From NCBI RefSeq assembly GCF_029983095.1, contig NZ_CP120467.1, forward strand, positions 310,001 through 374,000: a stretch of DNA of 64,000 nt, in the 5' to 3' direction. Numbering within the stretch: position 1 is the stretch's first letter; each line of letters opens with the position of its first letter. A program made the translations under genes and the position numbers. The notes under the pieces are model-generated. The model did no database searches. It saw only the letters and a list, made by a program, of their open reading frames with translations, and was not told the origin of the DNA. The DNA is from Enterococcus montenegrensis (GTDB taxonomy: Bacteria > Bacillota > Bacilli > Lactobacillales > Enterococcaceae). Positions 52,481 to 54,648 of the stretch are shown one piece after another.

Positions 52481-52645
52481 TTATCTACTCAAGGCATGAC
52501 GAAGTACTTGTTTTTGCCAAGCATTTTCGTAATGAGCCAATTGTTCATGGTAGCTGCGACTTCCTTTTTGAATCCGGACTTGCATGAATTTGATCAAGAG
52601 TAAAAATGCGGTGATGATACTAAATAAAATAATAAATTGTAACAT
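52481..52645 (-). CDS. 54-residue membrane protein, unknown function
   Basis: A short minus-strand gene with an excellent ribosome binding site (AGGAGGTGAGG before ATG 52645). The product has one hydrophobic helix (about residues 2-20, MLQFIILFSIITAFLLLIKF) and a basic, aromatic tail (VRIQKGSRSYHEQLAHYENA). It lies divergent from the Crp/Fnr regulator gene, and a palindrome that may bind that regulator sits between them at 52696-52707. No family was recognised. Confidence 0.65.
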   Translation of the reverse strand: MLQFIILFSIITAFLLLIKFMQVRIQKGSRSYHEQLAHYENAWQKQVLRHALSR

Positions 52646-52695
52646 CTTCCTCACCTCCTGAAACTAGTTTAGCGTCTTTTAGTTTTATCCAGATA

Positions 52696-52707
52696 GGACA
52701 TATGTCA
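52696..52707. promoter_or_regulatory. Palindrome GGACATATGTCA before the Crp/Fnr gene
   Basis: GGACATATGTC plus one mismatched base, immediately before a CATAAT -10-like box (52706-52711) of the regulator gene. The same palindrome in perfect form recurs at 53397-53408. Overlap with the promoter would give self-repression. Confidence 0.55.
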
Positions 52708-52734
52708 TAATGAAAGTGATTGGAGGCGGATACA

Positions 52735-53394
52735 TTGCAAAAAAAGTCGCTAAATGTTAAACAAGAACAAATTTTGGCAGAATGGAATTTAGCAAAAGAC
52801 CATTTACGAGGGTGTGAGTTGTGGCAATTTGAACAAAGAGAAACCATCATTACCCAAGGTGCGTTGTTGGATCGCTTGCTTTTTGTTTTATCCGGCAAAG
52901 CGAAAGTTTGTACCTTAGCTGATAATGGCAAAAATTTGGTTTTAGCCTACTATATTTCTGAAGGTATTATTGGCGATATGGAGTTTGCTATGAGAAAAGA
53001 TGAGGCGGAAACGACAATGGTGGCATTGTCTGATTTTCAGTGTATTGCCCTGCCGATTTTGCCCAATGAAGCTTACTTGCGACAGAATAGTCTTTTTATG
53101 AACACAATGGCACAAGGCTTGGCCGAAAAACTACAGCTTAGTTCGGAAAATTTTTTATCGGCGGCTTTTTATCCAGGAAAACAGCGTCTATGTGATTATA
53201 TCCTGCAATCGGCATATAAAAATTTCTTTAGCGATAATCTAACCGATGTGGCGGCGACAATTGGAATGAGCTACCGTCATATGTTTCGTTTGCTAAATGA
53301 TTTAATAACAACTGGCGTTTTGACAAAGGTTGGCAATGGCTATGAAATTTTACAGCCGGACCAATTGCAGCGTTTTGCGAAAGGATATTTATAG
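52735..53394 (+). CDS. Crp/Fnr-family transcriptional regulator
   Basis: Regulator with an N-terminal cyclic-nucleotide-binding-type beta roll (about 20-130) and a C-terminal winged helix with LTDVAATIGMSYRHMFRLLN (about 168-187). From TTG 52735 it has 219 residues. I chose that start because GGAGG lies eight bases upstream; the TTG at 52720 would overlap the binding site. Four cysteines are spread through the protein, but not in an Fnr-like N-terminal cluster, so an oxygen-sensing iron-sulfur centre is not evident. The signal is unknown. Two copies of a 12-bp palindrome flank the gene. Confidence 0.85.
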   Translation: MQKKSLNVKQEQILAEWNLAKDHLRGCELWQFEQRETIITQGALLDRLLFVLSGKAKVCTLADNGKNLVLAYYISEGIIGDMEFAMRKDEAETTMVALSDFQCIALPILPNEAYLRQNSLFMNTMAQGLAEKLQLSSENFLSAAFYPGKQRLCDYILQSAYKNFFSDNLTDVAATIGMSYRHMFRLLNDLITTGVLTKVGNGYEILQPDQLQRFAKGYL

Positions 53395-53396
53395 TG

Positions 53397-53408
53397 GGAC
53401 ATATGTCC
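53397..53408. promoter_or_regulatory. Perfect palindrome GGACATATGTCC after the Crp/Fnr gene
   Basis: Perfect 12-bp palindrome two bases after the regulator stop and upstream of a promoter candidate TTGTCC (53451-53456), 17 bases, TAAAAT (53474-53479) for the next gene. It lies about 80 bases before that predicted start, a distance compatible with activation. Confidence 0.55.
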
Positions 53409-53510
53409 TAGTGATAGAAAAATTTTAGCGAGCTTTTAAAAGCGCATTGATTGTCCTCAAGTTACATTCCAGCTAAAATAAAAGCAAAGAAAAAAGATGG
53501 AGGCGTTAGG

Positions 53511-54281
53511 ATGGACTTGGAATTAGCGGTAAAACTTACAGAGGATTTAAGAGAAATCTATTGGGAAAAATGGCAAAGCCACTTGTATTTTGTACCAACA
53601 AAGAAGATTTTGCCTAAAGTGGAGCGGGGAATTTATATAACGACAGAAGAAAGACAGGTTAAGACAATAGAACTTACGGCTCCAAAGTCAGTTACCCAGC
53701 CAACTATTGTCATTGAGGTGCCTTGGGAAATCGAGCCAGTGCTTTTATTGCAACATTTAGTAAATGTTTGGAAAGAAAATGGCTTAGAAGTCATCACGAA
53801 AGCCCCGACTGAAAAAATTCCAAGTAATCAATATGATAACCTTGCAACATTTCAGTTGGATCTTTTTTCTGTCTTTAATTTTTTAGGCTATCCAATGGCC
53901 AAAGTGAAGAAAAAACCGGCCAAAGCACAACACCGCTGGAATAAAAAAGTCAGTGACATCACGTTTCACATTAACCATGAAGGCGCTACAGGAGAGGCAA
54001 TTTGGCGTAAGCGTAATGAATTAGTCTTATTAAAAGGAGCGAAATTAAAAGCCGAAGCACCTTTGAATAAAGATGGTAGCGTAGGCTTTGCGGTACGATT
54101 TGCCAATCAATTACGGGATGAAAATGCGGATAAGGTGAAAGACTTTACGACGATTGCAGATATTGTTTTTAAAAGTGTGAATGAGTTGGGCAATTTTTTA
54201 TATTTTGCCGGTACCAATAGTTGGTTGGTGCTAAAAGATGATGAGGGCAACACCATTGATAGCTATACAGTGGTGAAATAG
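53511..54281 (+). CDS. DUF4357-like domain protein, unknown function
   Basis: Protein of 256 residues with no clear enzyme motif. The C-terminal part (about 160-256), with [13 protein letters not shown], then [10 protein letters not shown] and ending [12 protein letters not shown], resembles the DUF4357 domain often found beside nucleases, but I did not see nuclease residues in the rest. The N-terminal half is of unknown fold. From ATG 53511 (AGGCG site upstream; in-frame TTG at 53451 rejected) it is followed by the DUF2200 gene after 16 bases. A promoter candidate and the Crp/Fnr palindrome lie upstream. Confidence 0.55.
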
Positions 54282-54297: not shown

Positions 54298-54648
54298 ATG
54301 TCAGAAAAAATTTTTACCATGCCTGTTGCTAAAGTATATCCCTTATATGTAAAAAAAGCAGAGCGCAAAGGCCGCAGTAAAGCTGAAGTGGATGAAATTA
54401 TCATGTGGCTGACGGGCTTTGACAAAGAACAATTAGCTAGGGAGATACAAAATGATACCGATTTTGAAAACTTCTTTTTAAAAGCGCCACAACTTAATCC
54501 AGCAGCAACTTCCATTAAAGGTGTGGTTTGTGGCGTACGGGTGGAAGAAATAAAAGACCCTTTGATGCAAAAAATTCGCTATTTAGATAAGTTAGTTGAT
54601 GAGCTGGCAAAAGGTAAAGCGATGGATAAAATTTTACGTAGCAATTGA
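54298..54648 (+). CDS. DUF2200 family protein
   Basis: The 116-residue protein matches the DUF2200 family, with [20 protein letters not shown] near the start, IMWLTGFD in the middle and [20 protein letters not shown] towards the end. These proteins are widespread small cytoplasmic proteins of unknown function. AAAGGACAG precedes ATG 54298. It follows the DUF4357-like gene by 16 bases and is probably cotranscribed. Confidence 0.85.

Follow-up and report, generated by a model that had tools for sequence, protein, structure and literature searches.

CRP/FNR proteins acting as class II activators occupy a position at about -41.5, where a palindrome with a 4-bp centre replaces the -35 box. In Enterococcus, Ers, a PrfA-like regulator of E. 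faecalis, is a better-known member of the Crp/Fnr superfamily. Equally, YeiL of E. coli (b2163) is a Crp/Fnr-type protein with an SYRH recognition helix. In E. coli K-12, the palindrome ATGAGAAATCTCAT (L111:2289-2302) is seen about 43 nt ahead of yeiL, precedes a possible -10 (TAAGAT) of the divergent rihB by 23 nt, and is predicted to be a YeiL operator; a literature search on YeiL targets and motif returned nothing relevant and no description of such an operator.

Here, a window of 64,000 nt (G000:C1:310001-374000) from the 2.83-Mb genome of an Enterococcus of the dispar/canintestini group has been analysed, with Enterococcus sp. MJM12, E. dispar and E. canintestini as the nearest named relatives. 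A preliminary description had pointed to a Crp/Fnr regulator flanked by two palindromes and to a divergent 54-residue gene, all of which are real as judged by the window sequence and Pfam (Table 1). The window regulator shares with E. coli YeiL the Crp/Fnr type, the SYRH recognition helix and a palindrome placed upstream and before the possible -10 of a divergent gene. However, its half-site is GAC rather than GAG, the CRP-185 position is occupied by R rather than Y, the neighbour encodes a tiny membrane protein rather than a nucleoside hydrolase, and the match to the YeiL model NF007707 (116 bits, E 1.8e-33) lies below the curated NCBI cut-off of 180 bits, which leaves the protein outside the strict YeiL subfamily. 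The promoter resembles that of CRP/FNR class II activators in the palindrome at about -41.5, while its half-site KGAC differs from TTGAT or TGTGA. For other YeiL-like regulators of Bacilli (L175-L188, L213), an operator is likewise found, mostly 34-49 nt ahead of the regulator start and in the class II position of a divergent membrane-protein gene, although their targets are MFS or YdcZ-type transporters and not a one-pass protein of ~54 aa.

Table 1. Features of the regulator locus in window coordinates
Feature	Position	Strand	Remarks
Tiny gene, 54 aa from ATG	52484..52645 (stop 52481-52483)	-	Open reading frame with GGAGGTG ribosome-binding site; homologues in precisely the 23 family genomes with the regulator
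-10 hexamer TAAACT of tiny gene	52666..52671	-	23 nt after 14-mer; TANNNT pattern in relatives
Predicted operator, copy 1	52695..52708		AGGACATATGTCAT; conserved beside regulators merely 40-50% identical
Candidate -10 CATAAT of regulator promoter	52706..52711	+	Overlaps copy 1; inference
YeiL-like Crp/Fnr-family regulator, 219 aa	52735..53394 (stop 53392-53394)	+	Pfam, NF007707, Foldseek
Predicted operator, copy 2	53396..53409		GGGACATATGTCCT; begins just 3' of regulator stop
Promoter TTGTCC-17-TAAAAT of downstream two-gene unit	53451..53479	+	Conserved in 4 related species
256-aa protein	53511..54281 (coding 53511-54278)	+	No Pfam match to DUF4357; probably outside circuit
DUF2200 protein	54298..54648	+	PF09966 2.7e-53; probably outside circuit

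The regulator and its sensor features

The regulator starts with TTG after GGAGG and carries the recognition helix SYRHMFRLLN. Pfam matches to cNMP_binding (PF00027, 6.3e-12) and HTH_Crp_2 (PF13545, 1.4e-6) place it in the Crp/Fnr superfamily, and Foldseek recovered the CRP fold with CRP, GlxR and NtcA among the matches. Having the SYRH recognition helix and, close to its gene, a GAS-N4-STC palindrome, it belongs to a broad YeiL-like group, a grouping defined in this analysis and not a curated family. In the alignment, the equivalent of CRP Arg82, the residue for the cAMP phosphate, is not Arg in the window regulator or its clade, unlike in cAMP-responsive CRP, and the window regulator lacks the N-terminal cysteine cluster of FNR-type Fe-S sensors, its cysteines being C27, C59, C103 and C153 with only C59 near-invariant in the clade. 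Thus, cAMP and an FNR-type cluster are both unlikely as its signal.

The tiny membrane protein and its co-occurrence with the regulator

The product of the divergent gene matches nothing in Pfam or NCBIfam and represents a previously unnamed family. It consists of one hydrophobic segment (~residues 2-20) and, C-terminal to this, a charged helix, and an AlphaFold2 model shows a single continuous helix from residue 2 to 53 (pLDDT 84). Between species dN is smaller than dS, and Glu40 (window numbering) is invariant among 17 homologues. As the charges come after the hydrophobic stretch, a cytoplasmic location of the C-terminus is suggested. Judged by the predicted topology, the likeliest outputs would be docking onto a second membrane protein or feedback to the regulator.

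In a profile search (E below 1e-11) over 106 genomes of the family, 26 copies of the tiny protein were found, present in 23/23 genomes that encode a close full-length regulator but in 0/83 genomes without one; G025, with a regulator fragment only, has no tiny gene. As the 23 genomes are related, these are not 23 independent events. A phylum-wide search with a single-protein query revealed nothing beyond one distant relative. Regulator homologues of merely 40-50% identity from other genera of the family are accompanied by AGGACATATGTCAY or a near variant, and at all those loci except L059 this palindrome lies 48-53 nt upstream of the start of a gene whose 54-101-aa product has a hydrophobic segment at the N-terminus and a charged tail. 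In the group of the window and several other groups, regulator and tiny gene diverge; many loci of the large sister genus g3 have the tiny gene downstream on the opposite strand, which places the operator away from the promoter of the regulator there. The remaining neighbour genes vary between regulator loci. Regulator loci without a tiny gene (L049, L051, L054, L056) show no palindrome, and their genomes have a tiny gene with operator elsewhere. At L059 (G008:C3, an 83-kb contig), a regulator copy is accompanied by an operator ahead of a galE-like gene and no tiny gene is present there; as ParA-like and resolvase-like genes are nearby, this copy may sit on a mobile element.

Operator position in the promoter of the tiny gene

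The palindrome precedes all 26 copies of the tiny gene, for which 25 promoters were scored, the window's own being nearly identical to that of L040. In 25/25 of these the 14-mer is followed, at an offset of 22 or 23 nt, by a TANNNT hexamer, the T, A and last T of which are found throughout; at these offsets the mean match to a -10 is 4.68 of 6 versus about 2 at most other offsets. The operator is consequently centred at -41.5 (22-nt spacer) or -42.5 (23-nt spacer, as for copy 1 of the window), and, judged by spacing, a -10 and no -35 accompany it as in class II promoters. Across 398 genomes of the order, the combination of operator, -10 and GGAG was found only at these loci and at one terminator-like site. 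Five tiny genes unlinked to a regulator (G010:C2, G011:C2, G016:C19, G013:C76, G017:C59) keep operator and spacing, which identifies the tiny gene as the likely conserved target. Control of the divergent gene, as previously suggested, is therefore strongly supported by the conserved operator, the fixed class II spacing and the perfect co-occurrence, all of them features read from genomes.

In the window, GGACATATGTC occurs at 52696 and 53397, whereby the former copy reads GGACATATGTCA, with one mismatch to the 12-mer palindrome, and the latter is the perfect GGACATATGTCC. With up to two mismatches, three palindromes, a number reached by 11/100 shuffles, are found in the window versus 1.2 expected; the count alone is thus not beyond chance, and the palindromes gain their significance from conservation in relatives. 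Genome-wide, the perfect 12-mer has a single occurrence, within copy 2, and one mismatch yields five further sites, four of them outside the window locus. A random genome-wide spread, which would have refuted the preliminary reading, is excluded. By location, those four are not convincing as operators: two lie within a lacB-like and a pyruvate:ferredoxin oxidoreductase-like gene, one beside a sugar-hydrolase-like gene and one at the rpsA start (G000:C1:1672890). In those species of the genus that have the regulator, the rpsA palindrome covers the start codon together with the ribosome-binding site; as several regulator-less congeners have TTAGGAGGACATGAGTCATG, it is most likely a by-product of this conserved region and not a third genomic operator. 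Equally dismissed were most matches in genus g4, which lie inside one thiolase-like coding sequence, and those at L074, L092 and L100, which are terminator-like or beside gene ends.

Proposed circuit and alternative readings

We propose, with a probability of about 0.78, a two-gene activator-effector module in which the YeiL-like regulator activates the gene of a tiny one-pass membrane protein through a class II operator. On some signal, the regulator dimer would bind KGACATATGTCM centred at about -41.5 in the tiny-gene promoter, where the operator takes the place of the -35 box, and, as the promoter anatomy suggests, activate transcription by class II contact with RNA polymerase. At divergent loci, the bound regulator would probably limit its own expression through the overlapped -10. 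The product is predicted to span the membrane once with the N-terminus out and the C-terminus in, and its conserved cytoplasmic helix most likely docks on another membrane protein.

An alternative output, unlikely but deserving consideration, keeps the activation step and has little else in the regulon: the cytoplasmic helix would hold the regulator at the membrane or inhibit it, which makes the tiny protein the feedback part of a self-limiting switch. In these genomes no other partner is consistently linked and hardly any other gene bears the operator, which speaks for such a switch, although the unlinked extra copies fit an effector as easily as an anti-activator. Far less probable is that the operator exists mainly for the regulator to control itself, with the tiny gene being incidental. 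Self-control as such, suggested early on, is plausible for the divergent loci, in most of which CATAAT or CATACT is found at the position of the candidate -10; because the operator overlaps it, the control there would be negative. The claim does not extend to most g3 operators, which lie upstream of the tiny gene only. Operators are often found upstream of YeiL-like genes, yet in many relatives the operator is ahead of the tiny gene only, ~250-300 nt past the end of the regulator, and unlinked tiny genes retain it.

Conservation does not in itself prove that the window regulator binds the predicted operator rather than a YeiL-like paralogue with a similar helix (G000:C1:2296188). We consider it very improbable that this or another regulator reads the palindrome: in favour of the paralogue are its SYRHLLR helix and a GAC-N4-GTC site within the promoter region of its own gene, but operator and tiny gene track the window-type regulator in the 106 genomes, and genomes of genus g5 have the paralogue type and no tiny gene.

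Copy 2 had been thought to extend control to a 'DUF4357'-DUF2200 pair. Of the two labels, DUF2200 is confirmed by Pfam and DUF4357 is not, the 256-aa protein having no Pfam match to it. Copy 2 is kept in G043, G044 and G040 and degenerate in G038 (AAGACATATGTCCT), and its position is tied to the end of the regulator in the four related species. This persistence of a perfect or near-perfect site, while the neighbouring intergenic sequence diverged, is what favours a role for it, either by bringing the DUF2200 operon into the regulon or by looping the DNA over the regulator gene together with copy 1. We nevertheless regard such a role as improbable, as the palindrome is missing outside this clade, the distance to the operon promoter varies (about 83, 95 and 131 nt) and this promoter has its own -35 and -10 (consensus TTGTYC-17-TAAAAT among relatives, with TTGTTT as the -35 in G038). 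Because of the separate promoter and the variable distance, both proteins are left outside the activator-effector module, and control of the pair is not supported.

With the proposed module, an unannotated 54-residue frame becomes a gene that belongs to a family and has a likely regulator and a directly testable promoter. A predicted operator is also gained for the YeiL-like regulators, which have been poorly studied, E. coli YeiL among them. Tentatively, at somewhat less than even odds, the locus might stand for an undescribed enterococcal signalling module of regulator and small membrane protein, in which a Crp/Fnr activator controls almost solely a one-pass protein that feeds back or tunes a transporter or enzyme, within a wider YeiL-like family that pairs a GAC or GAG half-site with Arg or Tyr/His at one position of the recognition helix.

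Half-sites and neighbours in the YeiL-like family

In relatives across Bacilli and at E. coli yeiL, the operator is of the kind GACAWATGTC or GAGAWATCTC. Regulators of Bacilli with SYRHxxY or SYRHxxH have [RK]-GAGAWWTCTC upstream in 17/19 sampled cases; SYRHxxR regulators have GAC half-sites wherever a site was found, and many R-type proteins, mainly SYRHxNR, showed no site within the searched stretch. The association of residue 185 with the half-site base (Fisher test, p 2e-6, 60%-non-redundant set) does not count as independent evidence, since the tree shows a single change, and the pairing is offered as a hypothesis for this reason. The operator is often found 22-23 nt before the -10 of a neighbour, such as genes for MFS/YdcZ transporters or a phosphonate-binding lipoprotein and possibly rihB in E. 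coli, so that the window circuit can be viewed as a YeiL-like neighbour-activation circuit with a tiny one-pass protein as target.

Operators ahead of inosine-uridine nucleoside hydrolase genes, TGACAAATGTCCT at L203:1968 (G013) and GGGACAAGTGTCCT at L259 (G019), lie 22 nt before a -10 and resemble the E. coli yeiL-rihB arrangement. The hydrolase was rejected as a general regulon member, being restricted to G013 and G019, as no close homologue is found elsewhere in the family; G019 has a similar hydrolase operator but no close regulator. A second type of YeiL-like regulator, SYRHLLRT, is encoded in genus g5 (L205-L210) and by the window genome (L217, the paralogue at G000:C1:2296188), divergent from a phosphonate-binding lipoprotein gene, the promoter of which shows GGACATRTGTCAC (GTGACACAGGTCAT in L217) with TATGAT or TATTAT 22 nt further on.
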